Of a DNA stretch of 20,257 bases, positions 3,508-16,918 are shown piece by piece. Under the pieces are notes generated by a model. It had not been told where the DNA came from. It did not search any database and was given only the letters and a program-made list of their open reading frames with translations. The stretch covers positions 1 to 20,257 of the IMG/VR virus record IMGVR_UViG_3300010885_041448. One strand, 5' to 3'. A program made the translations under genes and the position numbers. The first letter of the stretch is position 1. The number at the start of each line of letters is the position of its first letter. The DNA is from a virus.

Positions 3508-4290
3508 ATGTATGCAGATGTTACCAGCAAACCCATCATCGCTCCCGTATTGGCCACAGAGCTGATCACTGCTGCTTGGCAGCTGTATCGTGCTCAGGGC
3601 TGGGCTGACCGTGCCTATCGCAGCGTGGTCACAGAACCAATCTATGCTGTGCAGAACATCCCTGAGCAGAACGTGCATACAGGTGACATAATCGTGTCCA
3701 GCCTGTACGAGACAGTGCTCAGCAATGCCATAGCTGTGCACCAGTCTACAGCAGACATTCCTCTGGACAATGCCATTGAGCTGGTTGTAACAGATGAGAT
3801 CCGCAGCCAAGCCGCAGCTGATCGCGAAACAGTGATCAATGACAACGTGCTGCGGACCCTGCAGGATGACAAGAACGATTTCCGTGCCAAAGTAGCTGAG
3901 CTGCTGCAGGCTGATCTCATACGCTATCAAGACCTCAAGACTCTGGCCTACATCACCACCATGGCCGACACTGTGCGTGCCAAGGCCGAAAGCGATACAC
4001 TGTTTGACCATGCCCGAGATGCGGTGCTGGCCCCAGTTGATCACACCGTGGATGTCACGGTGCAGATACTCAGCGCTAGATACAACCAGAATTGGAGCAC
4101 CTACAACCACAGTGCTATCACGGACGACGGCTGCGTGGTCAGCTTCTTCCAGAAGACACGACTGGAACCCATGCATCGTGCACGGATCACTGCCAAGGTC
4201 AAGGCGCACGGGCGCGTTTGGAACCGTCCTAACCTGGCAGAAACTCGCCTAAATTACGTGAAAATTGTCAATGATCTCAAACGTAAATGA
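3508..4290 (+). CDS. Unknown 260-aa early protein
   Basis: Starts MYADVTSKPIIAPVLATE. The upstream in-frame ATG at 3484 lies at about the expected transcription start of P3, so ATG 3508, preceded by CGGAG at 3495-3499, is preferred. The middle is helical and charged. The C-terminal 70 residues (ARYNQNWSTYNHSAITDDG, then RARITAKVKAHGRVW, then LNYVKIV) look like a small beta domain. In my recollection, short segments of the form T-x-K-V-K-x-H-G ... L-x-x-V-K-I occur at the ends of various phage proteins, some linked to single-stranded DNA, but this is not firm. No signal peptide or membrane segment. It is the only gene behind P3. Confidence 0.8.
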   Translation: MYADVTSKPIIAPVLATELITAAWQLYRAQGWADRAYRSVVTEPIYAVQNIPEQNVHTGDIIVSSLYETVLSNAIAVHQSTADIPLDNAIELVVTDEIRSQAAADRETVINDNVLRTLQDDKNDFRAKVAELLQADLIRYQDLKTLAYITTMADTVRAKAESDTLFDHARDAVLAPVDHTVDVTVQILSARYNQNWSTYNHSAITDDGCVVSFFQKTRLEPMHRARITAKVKAHGRVWNRPNLAETRLNYVKIVNDLKRK

Positions 4291-4294
4291 GTGG

Positions 4295-4322
4295 TTGACA
4301 GGCTGCTAGCCTGTGCTATGTT
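4295..4322 (+). promoter_or_regulatory. Early-type promoter P4 with perfect spacer dyad
   Basis: TTGACA at 4295-4300, 16-base spacer, TATGTT at 4317-4322 with TG extension. Bases 4298-4314 (ACAGGCTGCTAGCCTGT) form a 7-bp-arm inverted repeat at the same offset from the -35 box as in P3, though the arm sequence differs in the middle. Drives the 65-aa/123-aa pair. Confidence 0.8.
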
Positions 4323-4355
4323 ATAGCTATAAATAACGTCAGAGATGAGGTTAGC

Positions 4356-4553
4356 ATGAAGATCACAGAAGTCACCCAACCCAGCGATCAGCGCTTGTTT
4401 GAAGAGCTAGACAAGGGCAATGACACTGGTTATGCTACCGCTGATCTGGTCAAGGTCGTGCGCCAGCATCAGAGCGGGCAGTGGAGCGAACCCATGACAG
4501 CTGACCAAGTCACAGAACATCTGAGGAAGCTGATCGGTGCAAGTACGGTTTGA
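4356..4553 (+). CDS. Small 65-aa protein, possible partner of the next gene
   Basis: Starts MKITEVTQPSDQRLFEEL with GATGAGG upstream at 4344-4350. The protein is acidic and helical (TADLVKVVRQHQSGQWSEPMTADQVTEHLRKLI). It overlaps the RelE-like 123-aa gene by 17 bases in another frame. This order, a short protein directly overlapping a RelE-like protein behind an operator-bearing promoter, resembles a toxin-antitoxin pair, but no antitoxin DNA-binding domain is recognised. The N-terminal MKITEV also resembles the short acidic starts of other proteins here. Confidence 0.65.
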   Translation: MKITEVTQPSDQRLFEELDKGNDTGYATADLVKVVRQHQSGQWSEPMTADQVTEHLRKLIGASTV

Positions 4554-4971: not shown

Positions 4972-5562
4972 ATGTCAAACAAGGTAATCGTAACTGACGC
5001 AGATGGCGTCTTGCTCAACTGGGAATGGGCCTTTGAAGTCTGGATGGAAGAGCACGGACACAAGCTGCAGCCAGACCATGCAGGTGCTTATGACATGGGA
5101 CTGCGCTATGGCATCAGCAAGGAAGATACCAAGAAGCTGATCAAGCTATTCAACGAGAGCGCTGCCATCGGATTCCTACCTGCGCTGCGCGATGCTACAT
5201 ACTACGTGAAGATGCTGCACGAAAAGCACGGCTACGTTTTCGATGTAGTGACCAGCCTCAGCACCAATCCCTATGCCCAGAAGCTGCGCAAGAAGAACCT
5301 GCGCAAGCTGTTTGGCGAGACTGCATTTCGCAAGTTCAAGTTCCTGACCACCGGCGGTGACAAGGATGCTGCGCTGCTGCCCTACAAGGACAGTGGTCTT
5401 TGGTGGATCGAGGACAAGATCGAAAATGCCGAGCTGGGACACAGCCTTGGCATGAAGAGCTTGCTAATGGCACATGGTCACAATTACACTTATGCTCATG
5501 ATGACATCCGGGTGGTCAAGGATTGGTCCGAGATCTACGAGATCATCTTAGCGAGCGAGTGA
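4972..5562 (+). CDS. HAD-superfamily hydrolase
   Basis: A 196-residue protein starting MSNKVIVTDADGVLLNWEWA. DADGV (D9, D11) is HAD motif I, with nucleophile and acid/base aspartates. VVTSLS near residue 100 fits motif II (T/S). WWIEDKIENAELG near 150 fits motif IV with acidic residues. A helical cap lies between motifs I and II. The likely reaction is phosphate ester hydrolysis; the substrate could be a nucleotide or a sugar phosphate and cannot be told from the sequence. ATG 4972 is preferred because the in-frame ATG 4948 is at the expected RNA start of P5. The stop overlaps the next ATG (TGATG). Confidence 0.85.
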   Translation: MSNKVIVTDADGVLLNWEWAFEVWMEEHGHKLQPDHAGAYDMGLRYGISKEDTKKLIKLFNESAAIGFLPALRDATYYVKMLHEKHGYVFDVVTSLSTNPYAQKLRKKNLRKLFGETAFRKFKFLTTGGDKDAALLPYKDSGLWWIEDKIENAELGHSLGMKSLLMAHGHNYTYAHDDIRVVKDWSEIYEIILASE

Positions 5563-6113
5563 TGCGAGTTGCCATAACTGGCCATACCAAGGGTATAGGA
5601 GCTGCACTGCACGCTTGGTTGTCATCTCAGGACCACGAAGTCCTTGGATTTAGCCGTGCTACGGGGCATGATATATCAGATGATGCTGTGCAAAAACAGC
5701 TGATAACCTTGGCATCTGGCTGTGATTTGTTCATCAACAATGCGTTTGCTGGATCAGCCCAGAGCAGCCTGCTGTTCAAGTTCTGGCACCAATGGAACCA
5801 ATCAGATCAAGGCAAGATGATCATTAATATAGGCAGCAGAGCCGCAGTTGATTATCGTAAGCGTGTCAAACCCATGCTCTATGACATGCACAAGCTTGGA
5901 CTGCGCGAACTGTCTGGTGATCTAGCCAGCCGTCCTGGTAACGTTCGAGTGTGTCATCTCACCATAGGCTATGTTGATGTCCTGTCCACCAAGCTCAAGG
6001 ACGTTCCCAAGCTAGATATAGATCCCGTGCTGCGCTGTGTGGAATTCATGCTTGCGATGCCTGAGCCTGTGCAGATTAGAGATCTGTTTTGCGAGGTTAA
6101 ATTAAAGATATAG
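5562..6113 (+). CDS. Short-chain dehydrogenase/reductase 1
   Basis: The 183-residue SDR starts MRVAITGHTKGIGAALHAWL. TGHTKGIG is the cofactor-binding TGxxxGIG loop; LFINNAF is the NNAG-type strand; IINIGSRAAV supplies the catalytic serine and YDMHK the Tyr and Lys of YxxxK. It is shorter than classical SDRs (about 250 residues), with reduced substrate-binding regions. An NAD(P)-dependent oxidation or reduction is expected; the substrate is unknown. Start overlaps the HAD stop (TGATG). It is followed after 3 bases by a paralogue, and both are probably read from P5. Confidence 0.88.
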   Translation: MRVAITGHTKGIGAALHAWLSSQDHEVLGFSRATGHDISDDAVQKQLITLASGCDLFINNAFAGSAQSSLLFKFWHQWNQSDQGKMIINIGSRAAVDYRKRVKPMLYDMHKLGLRELSGDLASRPGNVRVCHLTIGYVDVLSTKLKDVPKLDIDPVLRCVEFMLAMPEPVQIRDLFCEVKLKI

Positions 6114-6116
6114 ATC

Positions 6117-6701
6117 ATGATAATAGCATTAACTGGTCATACATCGGGCATAGGGTCTGCATTACACAAGCATCTGTGCTGCTGCCATGACGTGCGCGGA
6201 TTTAGTCGCACTGACATCCAGCCCAATGGATTCAAACGCAGCACTGGCTATGATATTGACACGCCAGATGGCAGATCAAAGATTGTTAATGATGCCAATG
6301 ATGCTGATGTGTTCATCAATAATGCCAGTGGACGTGGCGGGCAGGCTCAGCTCTTGATGCAGATGTGGGATGCTTGGTCAGGAACACCTACACCAAAGAT
6401 GATCATAAACATAGGCAGTAGAGCTGCAGTCAAACCTTCGGTTGTTCCAACCAATTATGACATGAATAAGCAGCTGCTGAGAGATCTGTCGTTGAGCCTG
6501 GCAGATAAGCAGAGCTATATCAGGGTCACGCATCTGATGTTTGGATATGCTGATACAGCCTCAGTGCGACACATACAGCGGCCAAAATTGATGATAGATG
6601 AGATAATCAAATTGGTAGACTGGGTGTTGACCATGCCTGAATCATTGCAAATGAGAGAACTGCATCTTGATCTCAAGATGTACTCACTATCTACTGATTG
6701 A
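6117..6701 (+). CDS. Short-chain dehydrogenase/reductase 2 (tandem paralogue)
   Basis: 194 residues starting MIIALTGHTSGIGSALHKHL. It keeps TGHTSGIG, VFINNASG, MIINIGSRAAV and YDMNK in the same order as the preceding SDR, so the two come from a tandem duplication or paired acquisition. The proteins have clearly diverged: the second has a longer loop after GFSRTD and a different C-terminal half. The gene looks richer in A/T-ending codons than its neighbours. Substrate unknown. It ends one base before the stop of the converging leftward gene. Confidence 0.88.
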   Translation: MIIALTGHTSGIGSALHKHLCCCHDVRGFSRTDIQPNGFKRSTGYDIDTPDGRSKIVNDANDADVFINNASGRGGQAQLLMQMWDAWSGTPTPKMIINIGSRAAVKPSVVPTNYDMNKQLLRDLSLSLADKQSYIRVTHLMFGYADTASVRHIQRPKLMIDEIIKLVDWVLTMPESLQMRELHLDLKMYSLSTD

Positions 6702-6702
6702 T

Positions 6703-7524
6703 TCAGCGCAGTCGCAGAGGTTCTGCCTTGCTACTGGCTAGCTGATCGCTACTGGCATCTGGCCAAGCATAGATGTAACCACCGGCGAAATCTCTGACTA
6801 CCAAGAACTTCATGCCAGGAACCTTGTACACCAATGTCTGTGCGTTGTAGCCAGGGATGGTGTCCCCAAAGTCCATGTCAGCGGAATCAACCTTTTGCGC
6901 ATTGGTCTTGAGCCACTGTGCCACACCGCTGACTTCTCGGTCGCTGTTGGGACCCTGACCGCCCAGATTGGCCACCAGGCTGATCTCTTCGATTGGAGTG
7001 TCAGTGAACGCACCCATGGTAGCACGGCCCATGGCGCGTATGGGACGCTGCATGTAGCCCGGCAGGTTCTTGATCTGGTGCCATTCTGGATTGATGGCAT
7101 TGGGATCGCTGGCTGCTATGGCTTTGTTGATCAGCGCAGGCACTGCTGATGGCGGTGGTGGCTCAGGAACTTCTTCTGCATGGTCCACATCGCCTGGCAT
7201 CTCTGGTTCACTGTCAATGGCATCTGCGGGCACGTTTATGCGGCTCATCATGTCGCGCATGGCATCAGTTGGGTTTATGCGGCCCACTGCACGAGCAGTG
7301 CTGGCTGCTGATGCCTTGTTAAGCGTGGGAGCTTCGGGCGCTGCTTTGAAATCTTCCTTGCCCTTGGGTGGTTCTACAGTGGCCACAGGCTTGTCTTCTG
7401 GCTCGTCTAGGAACGTGCCCCAGTCAATCTCGTCGGCTTCAGGTTCTTTGTATTGAGTTTGAGAAGTCTGGGGTTGATCAGCCTTCTTCTTCTTGGGCTC
7501 ATCAGCCTCTATGATTTCGTTCAT
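6703..7524 (-). CDS. Unknown late protein with disordered N-terminal half
   Basis: Starts MNEIIEADEPKKKK (273 residues) from ATG 7524; ATG 7530 would add two residues. No Shine-Dalgarno is visible. The first 130 residues are Lys, Glu, Pro and Ala rich (ADQPQTSQTQYKEPEADE, EVPEPPPPSAVPAL) and probably unstructured. The C-terminal part (NPEWHQIKNLPGYMQRPIRAMGR ... MKFLVVRDFAGGYIYAWPDA) looks folded. A T4-type late octamer TATAAATA lies just upstream, which suggests a virion or morphogenesis role. NEIIE-A fits the I-x-E cleavage pattern of T4 prohead protease, so it may be an internal or processed protein; this is inference. Not recognised as a known family. Confidence 0.75.
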   Translation of the reverse strand: MNEIIEADEPKKKKADQPQTSQTQYKEPEADEIDWGTFLDEPEDKPVATVEPPKGKEDFKAAPEAPTLNKASAASTARAVGRINPTDAMRDMMSRINVPADAIDSEPEMPGDVDHAEEVPEPPPPSAVPALINKAIAASDPNAINPEWHQIKNLPGYMQRPIRAMGRATMGAFTDTPIEEISLVANLGGQGPNSDREVSGVAQWLKTNAQKVDSADMDFGDTIPGYNAQTLVYKVPGMKFLVVRDFAGGYIYAWPDASSDQLASSKAEPLRLR

Positions 7525-7554
7525 CAGCATCAGTTATTTATAATGCTGATGAAC
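7519..7554 (-). promoter_or_regulatory. Perfect 12-bp hairpin with late promoter in its loop
   Basis: GTTCATCAGCAT (7519-7530) and ATGCTGATGAAC (7543-7554) are perfect inverted copies with a 12-base loop at 7531-7542. On the minus strand the downstream arm contains both possible start codons of the leftward gene, and the loop contains TATAAATA. RNA made by read-through from mazG would fold and hide the start; RNA started at the late promoter would lack the upstream arm. Confidence 0.75.
7535..7542 (-). promoter_or_regulatory. T4-type late promoter octamer TATAAATA
   Basis: Exact match to the T4 late -10 octamer on the minus strand, in the loop of the 12-bp hairpin. With T4 spacing the RNA would start near 7529, so the message would be nearly leaderless and would favour ATG 7524 over 7530. 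Confidence 0.6.
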
Positions 7555-7561
7555 TGTGTTG

Positions 7562-7954
7562 TCAGAGATCCATCGCGCCTTTGATGTCTGGCGGAGTCCA
7601 ACCTGCTGGCTTCAAGACTTTCCCGTCTTCTCTGCGTATGACCTTGCCGTCTACCAGCTTGGCCATGTTTGATCTGTGAACTTCAGCAAACACTCGGTCC
7701 AAGGGTATACCATAGGATACTGCAGTGCCACAGGCGATGTAGATGATGTCAGCTAGCGCATCTGCTACTTCGATGAGATCATTATCACCTTCTGCCTTGA
7801 GATACTCTTCAAACTCCTCACGCAACAGTTTGACTCGCAGCCCACGCTGCGGCAGATCTGGAAACTCCGGATACTCTCCACGAGGCAGTCCAAATGCTTC
7901 GTGGAAAGCATCTACTGCATCGTATGGATGCAGCAGGATATCTGTGTCGTCCAT
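7562..7954 (-). CDS. mazG: MazG-like NTP pyrophosphohydrolase
   Basis: 130 residues; starts MDDTDILLHPYDAVDAFHEA. The core is an all-alpha MazG-like NTP pyrophosphohydrolase: LLREEFEEYLKA carries the ExxE metal ligands, followed by EVADALADIIYIACGTA with the ExxD pattern and then VHRSNMAK, as in short single-domain MazG-like and dUTPase-related proteins. Expected reaction: hydrolysis of a nucleoside triphosphate to NMP and pyrophosphate. Its start overlaps the stop of the sliding clamp gene (TGATG), so it is translated with the clamp and likely serves nucleotide pool cleaning during phage replication. Phage MazG proteins are common in marine T4-like phages. Confidence 0.85.
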   Translation of the reverse strand: MDDTDILLHPYDAVDAFHEAFGLPRGEYPEFPDLPQRGLRVKLLREEFEEYLKAEGDNDLIEVADALADIIYIACGTAVSYGIPLDRVFAEVHRSNMAKLVDGKVIRREDGKVLKPAGWTPPDIKGAMDL

Positions 7955-8691
7955 CAGCGCACCTTGGCAGGGAAGATGTAGCGATAGCTGCCCACACCAG
8001 TGTTCAGAGTGATCTGGATCACGCCCTTGGTGCTGAAGCTCATCTCACAGTCAGCAGTCTCGCTGAGCTTGAGCACAGTCATGATCTGTGCGATCTTCCA
8101 CTTGTGGCTGGCTTCAAACGTTTCTGTGAGATCTGTGGCAAACACCACACCGCCGCGCTGTGATGCTGCATCTTCTTCACCGATGAAGAACTTGAGCACA
8201 CCGTCTTGGATCTTGGGGATGAAGTACTGCTCGTACGCACCCAGACCTGCGCTTGCCCAGCCAAACTGCTGTATATTGCTCTTGCTGGGCTTGATGGTCA
8301 CGTCCCAGGCGGGTTCCATGAACTTGGGCTGATCTGGGATCAGCTGTTTGGCCATGAAGCGATAGTTGATGTAGCTCTTGCTCTTGTTGGTATAGCCCAG
8401 TTCTGTGGGAACCTTCTCACCGTTCTTGGTCTCGTACTTGACCTCCACGGTGCTTTCCTTGCTGTTGAACTCGCTGTCGCTGGCGATGTGACCCAGCAGG
8501 CTGAGGTTGCTGAGACCAAACTCACCATCCATGTCTGCCACAGGAGCAGTGAAGCTGCCCTTGAGCACCACTTCCTTTTCCTTCTCAAGTGCTTCTACCT
8601 TGATTGCCTTGGCATCAGCGGTAATCTTGATCTTGTCAAAGAATCCTGTTGATACCACGTACTTGGTTAGATCCTGGATGTAGTCCTTCAT
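7954..8691 (-). CDS. gp45: Sliding clamp, T4 gp45-like
   Basis: 245 residues starting MKDYIQDLTKYVVSTGFF; T4 gp45 is 228. The pattern of two tandem beta-alpha-beta modules is visible: KIKITADAKAIKVEALEKEKEVVLKG, then LSNLSLLGHIAS, and the second with AHKWKIAQIMTVLKLSETADCEMSFSTKGVIQITLNTGVGSYRYIFPAKV, ending in the basic-hydrophobic strand typical of gp45. The trimeric ring would tether the family B polymerase encoded upstream and, in T4, also activates late transcription. AGGAGG at 8700-8705 precedes the start by 8 bases, and its ATG overlaps the TAA of the 100-aa gene. The call rests on length, fold pattern and context; identity to gp45 is not high. Confidence 0.75.
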   Translation of the reverse strand: MKDYIQDLTKYVVSTGFFDKIKITADAKAIKVEALEKEKEVVLKGSFTAPVADMDGEFGLSNLSLLGHIASDSEFNSKESTVEVKYETKNGEKVPTELGYTNKSKSYINYRFMAKQLIPDQPKFMEPAWDVTIKPSKSNIQQFGWASAGLGAYEQYFIPKIQDGVLKFFIGEEDAASQRGGVVFATDLTETFEASHKWKIAQIMTVLKLSETADCEMSFSTKGVIQITLNTGVGSYRYIFPAKVR

Positions 8692-8993
8692 TACCTGTAG
8701 CCTCCTGTTCGATTGCCTATCTGTGATTGTTGATCTTCTTCTTGCTTGAGCTTGACGTTAAGCTTCATACGGTCTTCGCTCCAGCCACACAGCTCCTGCA
8801 TGATGAAACGCTTGCTCAACCAGCTGGGTGCCATGCCTATGGCTTCCATGAGAGTCCTGAGCTCGTCTGGTGTGTAGCGCGGGCCGTTCGCACCCGTGGT
8901 CGGATGCTGTGTTTGCACTATCGCGCTGTGGCTAGTGAACCTGCCCTGCGTATCCGTACTCATCTTGTCAGTTGTGGTTTTCTTGGTTGCCAT
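8691..8993 (-). CDS. Unknown 100-aa protein upstream of the clamp
   Basis: Starts MATKKTTTDKMSTDTQGRF with GAGG a few bases before ATG 8993. The N-terminal 45 residues are Thr/Ser rich and probably disordered. The C-terminal half (YTPDELRTLMEAIGMAPSW, SKRFIMQELCGWSEDRMKL) is helical, with a charged tail ending IGNRTGGYR. The SKRFIMQ ... WSEDRM part faintly recalls the C-terminal helix region of T4-like portal proteins, but this is not enough to call. TAA overlaps the clamp ATG. It has its own promoter-like sequence upstream, so it may be the first gene of a clamp-mazG unit. Confidence 0.7.
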   Translation of the reverse strand: MATKKTTTDKMSTDTQGRFTSHSAIVQTQHPTTGANGPRYTPDELRTLMEAIGMAPSWLSKRFIMQELCGWSEDRMKLNVKLKQEEDQQSQIGNRTGGYR

Positions 8994-9010: not shown

Positions 9011-9040
9011 ATTATACTCTTGACCTCGGGTTAGAGTCAA
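9011..9040 (-). promoter_or_regulatory. Sigma70-type promoter for the clamp unit
   Basis: On the minus strand: TTGACT (9040-9035), 18-base spacer, perfect TATAAT (9016-9011), 17 bases before the 100-aa start. It overlaps the end of the sulfotransferase-like gene. An imperfect inverted repeat (TTGAC / GTCAA) spans the spacer. It differs from the five rightward early promoters in lacking the TGTGCTA block. Confidence 0.6.
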
Positions 9041-9852: not shown

Positions 9853-12612
9853 TCAGAAGCTGAACAGATCTTCAAAGCTGCTGTTGATCTTGTGCTCATT
9901 GATGTTCCACTTGAGCACACCCAGCAAGTTGTCCAGCTTCTTGTCTATGAGCGCAGCTTCCATGGCATCATGATCGAATGGCAGTTCCTTGAACCATGTT
10001 GGCAGCTTGAGCTCGTCTGTGGGATAGGCCACTGATGTCATGCCACTGGGATTGGGCAGCAGCTTGCACACGATCACCTTCTGTCCATCCTGGATGGGCA
10101 TGCTGTAGTTGTCGTTGTAGATGCGCTTGAGCTTGTTGTAGTTCAGCGACGCTAGCACATGTCCTGGTATCATTATCTTCTTGCCATTGCTGCGTCCTAT
10201 GGTAGCACGCTCCATCTGCTCTTGGTTCTTGGCATGGTTGGTGATGTTGTTGGCACGCTTGGGGCTACCCTTCTCCCAGCCTGGCCAGCTGCGGAACTCG
10301 CGCCTGAATGCGCTGATGCGTTCCAAGCTCTCTTCGCGCCCGCTGCCTGTGAGCACACCAACCAGCACGTCCTGCAGGAAGTCCTGCACAGTCTTGGGCG
10401 TGTCCGATCGCTTGAGATCCAAGCCCATGGCCTTGATCTCACCGGGCTTGCCATTGGTATCTCGGCGCTTGCCTTCCTTGTCATAGATGAGGATAGCATA
10501 CCGTTTCTTTGTTATGAATAAACCCTTTGTGCCGCATAGTTCACGTGCTGCCTTGATGATCTTGCCGTTTTCTTCTGGAGCATGGAACGCGGCATACATG
10601 AAGTCTGGGAAGCTGGCATTGGTCATGTCAGCGATGCCGTCATAGAGCTTGATCACATTCTCCTTGGTCCATTCATAGTCTGCATACTCTGCCTTGTCCT
10701 TCATCACGGGATATGCACTAAACACACCCGAATCGGTGTCACCATAGATTATGCTTTCGCCGACATGGTTGTATGATCCGGTTATGATCTCGTTGATCTT
10801 GCTCTGCATGTGCTTGACGATGCAGCGACCGCTCAGCGTGGTGCTCTGTGCCACTCGCGGATCATACCAGCGCGATCCAGGGTTGCCAACTGCACCATAG
10901 AGTGAGTTTAGCAAGATTTTGGCTATTAACTGACGTTGATCATAGAACACTGCCTGCCGCTTGGCTTCGGTCTTCTCATCAGGATCAGTGGCTTCATCTG
11001 CTAGCTTGGCCCACTTGCGATACTCTGCCTGCAGCTCCTTGCGTTCAGCAAACCATCTGGTGAGCACGCCTGGTATCAGTCCCTGCTTGCCATAATCAAA
11101 GATGGTGCCGTTGGCACTCAGTGTGAGCTGCTTGCCGCTGTTCCATACCAGATCGTACACTTCCTTGGCAGTGACCACCACTTCGTTACCATCTTCAAAC
11201 TGTATGGTCACCGGCGTGTTGTTCTGTTCCATCACTGCCTGATATTCCAGCGTGCCAAACACGCTGTTCCATGCGTCAGCAAAGCTTTTCTTCTGTGCTA
11301 TCTGTGCTTTCACGAACTGATCTGTGGCTTCTGGCTTGATCTGTCCCACGATGGTCTCTGTGCTCATGTTCAGCGCACGGATCACTGATGGATACAGTGA
11401 ATTGATGTCCACACCGCCGATCCAGTCGTGCATGCCTGGCTTGGGATCTGCCACATAAGCACCCACCACTGAGCCACCCATCTCTGCTTCTTCGTCCCAG
11501 CGTGCCTGCTTTTCTTCTTCGGTCTCACGTATCCTTGCTGGTACCATGAGATCCATGTCATGCGCTGCGTTCACGATGGCTTGGTCAATCAGCGTCACAG
11601 CACCCATGGTTGTCTGCAGCAGCACGCAGTTGGTGTGTGCGATGTTGTTGGCCAGCTCGATGAAACGGAGCTTGGCGTCGATCTTGACCAGCAGCTGCAC
11701 GTCCTGCCTGCTGTACTCAATGAACTTCTTGAAGTCATTGTTGTATAGCTGATCCAGCGTGCCTTCATATGGCACCTTGCGATCTCCCACCTCATACTCG
11801 CCGATGGCATCCAGGCGATATGAATGCATCTCATGATAGGTATGTTTGCGATACAGCTGCAGATAATCTAGATGGCAGCGACCAACCAGGTCATAGGTCA
11901 CTGTCTCGCGGCCATAGCTCTCATATTCTCTCTTCTTGGGATACTTGTTCCATAAGCACAGTCGTGCTGTCTCGGATTTGCCAAGGACCTGCACGATGCG
12001 ATTGTAGATGTAGGGAATATCATAGCTCTCTGAATTCCAACCCGTGAGGATGTCACAGTCTTCGATCAGCGTGAGGAATATGTCCAGCAGTTCTTTCTCG
12101 TTGGCACACAGCATGGTGTCTGAGAATTCTGCACAGATGTCTTCAGCCACCTGCTGGCTCATCTTGCGTGGTTTCAGCACCAGCGTGATGTTGCGCTCCA
12201 TCCAGTTGAGATAGAGGCTGATGGCAGTGATCTGGCTGAAAGCATCCTCAGGCGTGCTGAATCCACGCAGGGGATCGAAGTCAGTCTCAATGTCGAAGAA
12301 GCCCACGCGCAGCTGCGGTGCTGGTGCATCGCGATAGTTGTCATAGAGACAGCGGAAGATGGGATTGATGTCGCTCTCGTGCAGCTTGCCCTTGGGCAGC
12401 ACTCCCAGCTCGCGCTTGAATTCCTTGTCCTTGTTGGTCTGGAACTTATCCAGCTTGGTGCCAAAGATGCTGGTGTACTTGCCTCGCTCTGAGGGCCAAT
12501 ACACCACGTATCTGGTTGGATGTTCTGTGAGCACTCGCCTGCCATCTGGCAAGCGTTCTGCTACATAGATTGTGTTCTTCTCACGGTCGATTATCGCATC
12601 GACGTAACTCAT
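9853..12612 (-). CDS. gp43: Replicative DNA polymerase, family B, T4 gp43-like
   Basis: 919 residues (T4 gp43 is 898), 3'-5' exonuclease then polymerase. Exo I FFDIET (D107, E109), Exo II GWNSESYDIP (N193, D198), Exo III YSRQD (Y300, D304). Polymerase motif A DINSLYPS (D402), motif B KILLNSLYG (565-573), motif C YGDTDS (D625, D627) and the KKRY motif TKKRYAI. The C-terminal end SSFEDLFSF resembles the clamp-binding peptide of gp43-type polymerases (LFDMF in RB69), consistent with the gp45-like clamp nearby. ATG 12612 follows AAGGAGG (12624-12618) at 5 bases. A 4-bp stem with 8-base loop abuts that site, as in the autogenous operator of T4 gp43. All catalytic residues seem intact. This is the main replicase. 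Confidence 0.96.
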   Translation of the reverse strand: MSYVDAIIDREKNTIYVAERLPDGRRVLTEHPTRYVVYWPSERGKYTSIFGTKLDKFQTNKDKEFKRELGVLPKGKLHESDINPIFRCLYDNYRDAPAPQLRVGFFDIETDFDPLRGFSTPEDAFSQITAISLYLNWMERNITLVLKPRKMSQQVAEDICAEFSDTMLCANEKELLDIFLTLIEDCDILTGWNSESYDIPYIYNRIVQVLGKSETARLCLWNKYPKKREYESYGRETVTYDLVGRCHLDYLQLYRKHTYHEMHSYRLDAIGEYEVGDRKVPYEGTLDQLYNNDFKKFIEYSRQDVQLLVKIDAKLRFIELANNIAHTNCVLLQTTMGAVTLIDQAIVNAAHDMDLMVPARIRETEEEKQARWDEEAEMGGSVVGAYVADPKPGMHDWIGGVDINSLYPSVIRALNMSTETIVGQIKPEATDQFVKAQIAQKKSFADAWNSVFGTLEYQAVMEQNNTPVTIQFEDGNEVVVTAKEVYDLVWNSGKQLTLSANGTIFDYGKQGLIPGVLTRWFAERKELQAEYRKWAKLADEATDPDEKTEAKRQAVFYDQRQLIAKILLNSLYGAVGNPGSRWYDPRVAQSTTLSGRCIVKHMQSKINEIITGSYNHVGESIIYGDTDSGVFSAYPVMKDKAEYADYEWTKENVIKLYDGIADMTNASFPDFMYAAFHAPEENGKIIKAARELCGTKGLFITKKRYAILIYDKEGKRRDTNGKPGEIKAMGLDLKRSDTPKTVQDFLQDVLVGVLTGSGREESLERISAFRREFRSWPGWEKGSPKRANNITNHAKNQEQMERATIGRSNGKKIMIPGHVLASLNYNKLKRIYNDNYSMPIQDGQKVIVCKLLPNPSGMTSVAYPTDELKLPTWFKELPFDHDAMEAALIDKKLDNLLGVLKWNINEHKINSSFEDLFSF

Positions 12613-15982: not shown

Positions 15983-16918
15983 TTACTTGGTGGTTATCTG
16001 TGCGAACGTCTTCTTGACTTCTGCTTTCTGAGCAGCTGTGAGAGGCACGTAGTCCAGAGCTTGTGCTTCCTTGTCGTGTGCAAAAGCATACTCAAAGAAC
16101 TTGATAGCGTCTGCTGCAGCTTTCTTGTCGTCTGGAGCTTTGTACATGACGATGTAGCTGGTTGCTATCATTGGCCACGTGCCCTGGAAGCTCTTGAGAT
16201 TTGGCTCAACTGCCTTGCCATCGCTGCCCAACATCTTTACCCAGCTGAGATTATTGCTCTTGGCAAACGCATATTCTACGTAACCGATGCTGCCGTTGGT
16301 CTGCAGCACATTGTTGGCCACACCGTCGTTGCCCTTGGCACCGATCGCACCGCCGACCCACTCCACAGTCTGACCGAAACCATAGGTCTTCTTCCAGTCA
16401 GCATTGGCTTCTGCCAGAAAACGTGTGAAGTTCCAAGTGGTACCCGAGCCGTCTGAACGGCGGATCTTGATGATCGGAAGGTCTGGTAGCTTGATTGCAG
16501 GATTGAGCGCAGCTATTTCTTTGTCGTTCCAGCGCTTGATCTTTTCCATGTAGATCTTGGCCATTATGTCAGTGTTGAGCACTAACTTGCCTGCTTCTAC
16601 TTCCTTGAGGTTTACTACTGGCACGATACCGCCAATGATCATTGGAAACTGTACCTGGCCCTTCTTGTCCAGATCAGCAGCACTTACTGGGATGTCTGTG
16701 GCACCAAACGTCACTGTCTTGGCGTCAATCTGCTTCATGCCTGCGCCAGAACCAATGCTCTGATAGTTTAGCTGGTCGCCGCTGACCTTCTTGTAATCAT
16801 CAGCCCACTTGCTGTAGATAGGGAATGGGAATGTCGCGCCTGCACCTGTGATGTCACCGGCCCATGCTGATGTAGCCACCACTGCAGCTACCACTGATAA
16901 TGCGATTTTCTTTAGCAT
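15983..16918 (-). CDS. pstS: Phosphate-binding periplasmic protein PstS
   Basis: 311 residues. A signal peptide (MLKKIALSVVAAVVATSAWA, cleavage after A20) directs it to the periplasm. The mature part begins GDITGAGATFPFPIYSKWAD, and the phosphate-binding blocks GSGAG, FGATDIP, RRSDGSGTTWNF and GKGNDG are all present. KFFEYAF and a basic end follow. E. coli PstS is 346; here the stretch before the WPMIATSYIVMYK strand is about 20 residues shorter than in E. coli. Its role is high-affinity phosphate capture for the host PstCAB transporter; no pstCAB genes are in the window. AGGAGAGG upstream of ATG 16918. Expression from a Pho box suggests control by host PhoB. Strong likeness to beta/gammaproteobacterial PstS suggests acquisition from a host. 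Confidence 0.97.
   Translation of the reverse strand: MLKKIALSVVAAVVATSAWAGDITGAGATFPFPIYSKWADDYKKVSGDQLNYQSIGSGAGMKQIDAKTVTFGATDIPVSAADLDKKGQVQFPMIIGGIVPVVNLKEVEAGKLVLNTDIMAKIYMEKIKRWNDKEIAALNPAIKLPDLPIIKIRRSDGSGTTWNFTRFLAEANADWKKTYGFGQTVEWVGGAIGAKGNDGVANNVLQTNGSIGYVEYAFAKSNNLSWVKMLGSDGKAVEPNLKSFQGTWPMIATSYIVMYKAPDDKKAAADAIKFFEYAFAHDKEAQALDYVPLTAAQKAEVKKTFAQITTK

Follow-up and report, generated by a model that had tools for sequence, protein, structure and literature searches.

Repression of gene e in bacteriophage T4 amounts to roughly 100-fold. The late promoter box of this gene lies in the stretch that encodes the 5' strand of an RNA helix burying the start, and RNA made from the late promoter lacks that strand (PMC3014915). 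T4 soc, 49, I-TevI, I-TevII and segB, along with mobE of phage Aeh1, are also late genes carried on early or middle RNA, with a start region that is freed only by transcription from the late promoter (PMC3014915, PMC2988022). Within this group of inhibitory structures, the Shine-Dalgarno sequence and/or the AUG may be sequestered, and a Shine-Dalgarno sequence is not a defining component. Leaderless mRNAs, a separate class, are read by ribosomes from a 5'-terminal AUG.

The locus described here resembles gene e in that the loop of a helix, immediately past the 5' arm, contains a late box, and this helix is predicted to bury the AUG in the long RNA. Unlike gene e, which has a Shine-Dalgarno sequence and a 13-nt gap between box and AUG, this gene has a 4-nt gap and no Shine-Dalgarno sequence, and its late message is predicted to be leaderless. 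Whereas the hairpins of the homing endonuclease genes sequester a ribosome binding site, this one sequesters AUGs only. The gene e logic is already known, and the AUG-only leaderless form is a variant of it, so called because a Shine-Dalgarno sequence, sought on the late RNA of this gene, is absent. As in leaderless mRNAs, one class of late genes in this phage group has a predicted 5' end at the AUG, and AUG is almost exclusive; what distinguishes this class is that a T4-type late box defines it and that the gene studied here adds a hairpin in the read-through RNA. We regard it as likely that promoter choice sets an RNA switch at this locus, in which the hairpin would lock the AUGs in read-through RNA and a late start would free a leaderless message.

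Genomic context

The window, meaning the whole stretch of DNA analyzed, is a virus record of 20,257 bases. The nearest named phages to its family B DNA polymerase are Sinorhizobium phage Phosso (49%) and Agrobacterium phage Atu_ph07 (47%), both jumbo phages of the T4 superfamily. Uncultured relatives, on contigs of up to 518 kb, share the gene order polB, small open reading frame (ORF), clamp, mazG, late gene. The features of the locus, all on the minus strand, are as follows.

9011-9040, minus strand: strong sigma70-like promoter, TTGACT-18-TATAAT (11 of 12 positions), at the head of the operon of the 100-aa gene, clamp and mazG
8691-8993, minus strand: 100-aa ORF, first gene of the operon, with Shine-Dalgarno sequence AGAGGAAATCACATG
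7954-8691, minus strand: sliding clamp homologue, 245 aa (phrog_12062, 4e-42; homologues annotated as sliding clamp or PCNA)
7562-7954, minus strand: MazG-like nucleotide pyrophosphohydrolase, 130 aa (phrog_671, 6e-44; Pfam PRA-PH match)
7543-7554, minus strand: 5' arm of the hairpin, non-coding, 7 nt past the mazG stop
7535-7542, minus strand: T4-type late promoter box TATAAATA, in the hairpin loop at the Shine-Dalgarno position
7528-7530, minus strand: ATG1, preferred start codon, with the late transcription start predicted at 7530-7528 from T4 box geometry (PMC1524935)
7522-7524, minus strand: ATG2, in-frame alternative start, lost in orthologous locus L010
7519-7530, minus strand: 3' arm of the hairpin, forming the first four codons
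6703-7530, minus strand: putative late gene, 275 aa, function not assigned, member of a conserved family (13 sequences)

Elsewhere in this 20-kb phage fragment, a Pol III alpha-like ORF (195-2012) occurs together with the family B polymerase (9853-12612). In two related loci, L011 and L012, polB appears by eye to carry an intein- or homing-endonuclease-like interruption after YGDTDS or YGDS. Two neighboring ORFs of 196 and 194 aa at 5523-6701 on the plus strand look alike, and one has a weak short-chain dehydrogenase match. A 311-aa ORF on the minus strand (15983-16918) has, by eye, the look of a PstS-type periplasmic phosphate-binding protein; such proteins are common in aquatic phages.

The inverted repeat and the start of the late gene

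The original prediction described a perfect 12-bp inverted repeat that brackets a late promoter and holds both ATGs of the downstream gene in one arm. The observation is real: the arms (7519-7530 and 7543-7554) are perfect over 12 nt and 12 nt apart, the box (7542-7535) is in the loop, and ATG1 (7530-7528) and ATG2 (7524-7522), which share a frame, both fall inside the 3' arm. The window has no other perfect 12-bp repeat with a loop of 3-30 nt, and dinucleotide-shuffled windows contain a mean of 0.04, with at least one present in 7 of 200. Exact matches to TATAAATA number two in the window, against 0.10 expected, this box on the minus strand being one of them. RNA from 7564 to 7500 folds at -20.9 kcal/mol versus -8.4 for shuffled sequence (z -5.2; 0 of 200 shuffles as good). 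A search of the whole window against Rfam gave no match at the gathering threshold. A repeat cassette was considered and rejected: single arm-like matches with up to two mismatches number 13 versus 4.6 by chance, but there is no second paired copy in the window.

The gene lacks a Shine-Dalgarno sequence before ATG1 because the late box occupies its position. With only 4 nt separating the end of the box from AUG1, a leaderless late message is to be expected; as its predicted start falls on the opening bases of the 3' arm, late RNA should lack the whole 5' arm. The gene had been placed at 6703-7524; the ORF, however, begins at 7530, and ATG2 survives as an in-frame alternative. The true start is probably ATG1, because L010 has ATA in place of ATG2 and because, in predicted folds of the late RNA of the window, AUG2 is mostly paired and AUG1 open.

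Predicted folds of read-through and late RNA

It had been proposed that RNA reading through from clamp and mazG would sequester the start, while RNA from the late promoter, beginning inside the hairpin, would stay open. Folding of both transcripts agrees. In read-through RNA the predicted probability that AUG1 is open is 0.00 in the window and in its four close relatives (L005, L002, L006 and L010), whereas in RNA beginning at the predicted late start it is 0.85-0.98. The cost of opening the start region in the same five sequences is 8.2-17.5 kcal/mol for read-through RNA versus 0.4-3.3 kcal/mol for late RNA. In the window the result is stable to flank length and to a shift of the start site by 2 nt either way; late RNAs beginning within 2 nt of ATG1, as T4 box geometry implies, are predicted to be open at 0.86-0.94. 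The same pipeline applied to T4 gene e, whose logic the original prediction had invoked, gives a like result (15.8 for read-through versus 1.2 for late RNA). A gene e-like mechanism is well supported at the level of sequence.

More distant orthologues vary. L009 has the same gene order and box and an unrelated hairpin (AATATCTCAC / GTGAGATATT) whose 3' arm carries a Shine-Dalgarno-like GTGAG; a late start removes most of the 5' arm, and the opening cost is 23.9 versus 2.9 kcal/mol. In L013 the box is kept, but the hairpin is upstream and the AUG is not gated (6.3 versus 5.8), and L023 shows little difference between the two RNAs. Gating by a hairpin is therefore not universal among the orthologues, as L013 and L023 do not show it. 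In L013 (6140-6170, in genome G010), an 11-bp perfect hairpin (TGCCGTGTAAG/CTTACACGGCA) ends at the late box and is not followed by a T run.

Expected read-through and the end of mazG

A promoter match of 10-11 of 12 positions is present at the equivalent place in L005, L006, L010, L009 and L013, making six orthologous loci with the window. From the promoter at 9040-9011 to the late gene, the terminator scan lists no minus-strand site, and the sites that it does list across the whole region are no more numerous than in shuffled sequence. Because of this conserved upstream promoter and the lack of a convincing terminator, transcription of the operon is expected to read into the late gene. Ribosomes finishing mazG could mask the outer 5' arm, but the inner pairs, in which AUG1 is held, should lie beyond their reach. 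The mazG stop of L010 is inside the late box, so ribosomes terminating there could open the hairpin.

It may be instead that the hairpin mainly ends or processes the mazG message, as a terminator, an RNase site or a 3' stabilizer, and that its overlap with the start codon is secondary. Its location 7 nt past the mazG stop would fit, as would L025 and L026, which lack a gating hairpin and instead carry, immediately ahead of the box, a hairpin that resembles an intrinsic terminator, T run included, although this is also the pattern to be expected if the gating hairpin serves against read-through. The window hairpin does not have the form of an intrinsic terminator, as its 3' arm is followed by GAAATC and not a T run, and it is absent from the terminator scan list. 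Moreover, in five sequences its position is tied to the box and ATG, at a spacing of 4 nt, and not to the mazG stop, which in L010 falls within the box. We consider a role at the end of mazG quite unlikely.

Conservation among relatives

If the start codon is gated by RNA pairing, the arms should be conserved as a pair, and in the four close relatives they are, with both G.U and two-sided changes. In the alignment of the arms, a sample of only five sequences for covariation, 89% of cells are paired, falling to 22-62% when the partner is slid by 1-3 columns. Two pairs have changed on both sides (U-A to G-C and C-G to U-A), both in L010 only; L005 has two internal mismatches. The 5' arm, non-coding in four of the five sequences, is kept while the flank on the mazG side diverges. 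The box occurs as [CT]ATAAATA at the equivalent position in the four relatives, and the box-to-ATG spacing is 4 nt in all five sequences. When viral contigs were scanned for the box-arm motif by pattern, 27 stretches were found, of which L002, L036 and L043 are the same gene in relatives already known; the remaining stretches have no comparable hairpin around the box.

The perfect dyad spans a promoter, and the repeat could thus be a DNA operator, at which a dimeric protein on two half-sites represses or autoregulates late transcription; I-TevI, which represses at its own late promoter, is a precedent (PMC2988022). However, G.U changes at three pairs (five cells, in L002, L006 and L010) leave the sense RNA paired, while the antisense would have A.C; they break the DNA dyad and so favor the RNA reading over DNA binding. 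The hairpin of L009 is unrelated in sequence and has the same effect on RNA, and the paired site has no other copy in the window. An operator is accordingly very unlikely. That the palindrome is a functionless product of chance kept by common descent is highly improbable: perfect repeats of at least 10 bp are frequent in the 518-kb relative (215 counted) and the close sequences number only five, but 0.04 would be expected per window at 12 bp, and this repeat coincides with box and start codon and keeps its 5' arm where the flank has diverged.

A proposed switch set by promoter choice

The start site, read-through, timing, repression and leaderless translation that we infer for this locus would combine as follows. 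Early in infection, RNA from the sigma70-like promoter (about 9011) would run through clamp and mazG into the 275-aa gene and fold a hairpin of 12-14 bp that buries both AUGs. Given the hairpin and the missing Shine-Dalgarno sequence, early translation of the gene is proposed to be poor. Late in infection, a gp55-like sigma factor would start transcription from the box in the loop, at or within 2 nt of ATG1, and the resulting RNA, devoid of the 5' arm, would offer a 5'-terminal AUG that ribosomes could use as a leaderless message. It is the late box that marks the gene as a putative late gene. A gp55-like sigma factor is encoded in the relatives G010 and G011, and none was found in the shorter contigs of the group, including that of the close relative G003.

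Apparently leaderless late genes in the group

The original prediction also called the message nearly leaderless; this holds as a prediction from the 4-nt gap between box and AUG1, and the class extends across the group. The survey covered 239 boxes from nine genomes or fragments of the group and recorded downstream ATGs that open at least 60 codons. The distances are 4 nt in 25 cases, 5 nt in 21, 6 nt in none, 7-8 nt in 11 and 12-14 nt in none, and then mostly 16-30 nt, while ATGs that open no ORF are roughly flat over distance. Starts at 4-5 nt comprise 46 ATG (some of them mutual orthologues), 2 GTG and no TTG. The distribution is bimodal with a sharp peak at 4-5 nt in G010, G005, G003, G012, G011, G013 and HTVC008M. 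No ORF-opening ATG lies at 4-5 nt in T4 (65 boxes) or Atu_ph07 (125 boxes).

T4 late boxes are at -13 to -6 (PMC1524935), and an ATG 5 nt past the box is therefore at +1. In Pelagibacter phage HTVC008M, which is cultured, nine ORF-opening ATGs lie exactly 5 nt past a box, and S-PM2 has one. Independently annotated genes of HTVC008M begin at these positions, among them those for the tail tube cap (19456), baseplate wedge (31132 and 49760), DNA end protector (18916) and tape measure (16007) proteins. Because the box takes the Shine-Dalgarno position, read-through RNA would present an internal AUG with no Shine-Dalgarno sequence, and late RNA a 5'-terminal AUG. Over 52 genes with a gap of at most 9 nt, the mean probability that the AUG is open is 0.31 in read-through and 0.77 in late RNA, a difference that is partly a mere effect of the shorter RNA. 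It seems reasonably probable that the window phage, its jumbo relatives and HTVC008M make many late proteins from leaderless messages in which the box replaces the Shine-Dalgarno sequence, so that the gene would be poorly initiated on read-through RNA, and that some of these genes have a hairpin as a second lock. The literature searched offered no description of such a class, which does not prove its absence.

Other late promoters within hairpins

Pairing between upstream and start regions at late promoters was compared, by minimum free energies, with that after 200 shuffles of the upstream 30 nt. Excess upstream pairing (p<0.05) was found for 31 of 149 late promoters in the group of the window, against about 7.5 expected, although the 149 include orthologous promoters of related contigs and are not all independent. 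The same test gives 6 of 28 in T4, among them gene e at -67018 and, at -45638, a gene of 258 aa that is presumably I-TevII, and 8 of 58 in Atu_ph07. Across the T4 superfamily, then, a minority of late genes use the hairpin logic. One promoter in G010 (-497825, locus L087) matches the architecture of the window, with GTGTGCCATG / CATGGCACAC around TATAAATA, an ATG in the 3' arm and a 5-nt gap.

Two further late promoters, G010 -53611 (L065) and G005 -1286 (L089), lie in strong hairpins that cover the start region, and the N-termini of their genes are alike. At 4288-4360 on the plus strand of the window, a sigma70-like TTGACA element with a small hairpin, ACAGGCTGCTAGCCTGT, leads into TATAAATA, and the ATG at 4356 follows 20 nt later. 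This element resembles a combined early and late promoter, and a similar one is present in the relative G001.

The product of the putative late gene

Neither Pfam nor, at E 0.001, a fold search of the PDB gave a match to the 275-aa protein, and its family has no match in PHROG beyond a weak one (E 0.042) in an extra part of the L010 protein. The AlphaFold model has low confidence (mean pLDDT 56). The one strong structural match, aligned along the query at 31% identity, is to a 1182-residue phage protein named GH19 glycoside hydrolase, which we treat as a lead only. In L027 and L028, the family is embedded in proteins of 817 and 730 aa.

Several orthologues have an N-terminal IIE-A, LTE-A or LKE-A motif (7507-7530 in the window), and we take this [IL]xE-A pattern to resemble the T4 prohead protease site. 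Prohead-protease-like motifs are enriched at apparently leaderless late genes, occurring in 12 of 52 versus 64 of 1407 other genes, with orthologues counted. The motif suggests that the 275-aa product may be a virion protein.

Implications

The locus would extend a textbook T4 control to uncultured jumbo phages, at a gene that has no Shine-Dalgarno sequence. The leaderless class can be tested in cultured HTVC008M, where it could be asked whether promoter position alone decides if an AUG is read, and whether ribosomes late in infection favor leaderless messages. If the reading is true, the transcription start used would decide the route that the ribosome takes.
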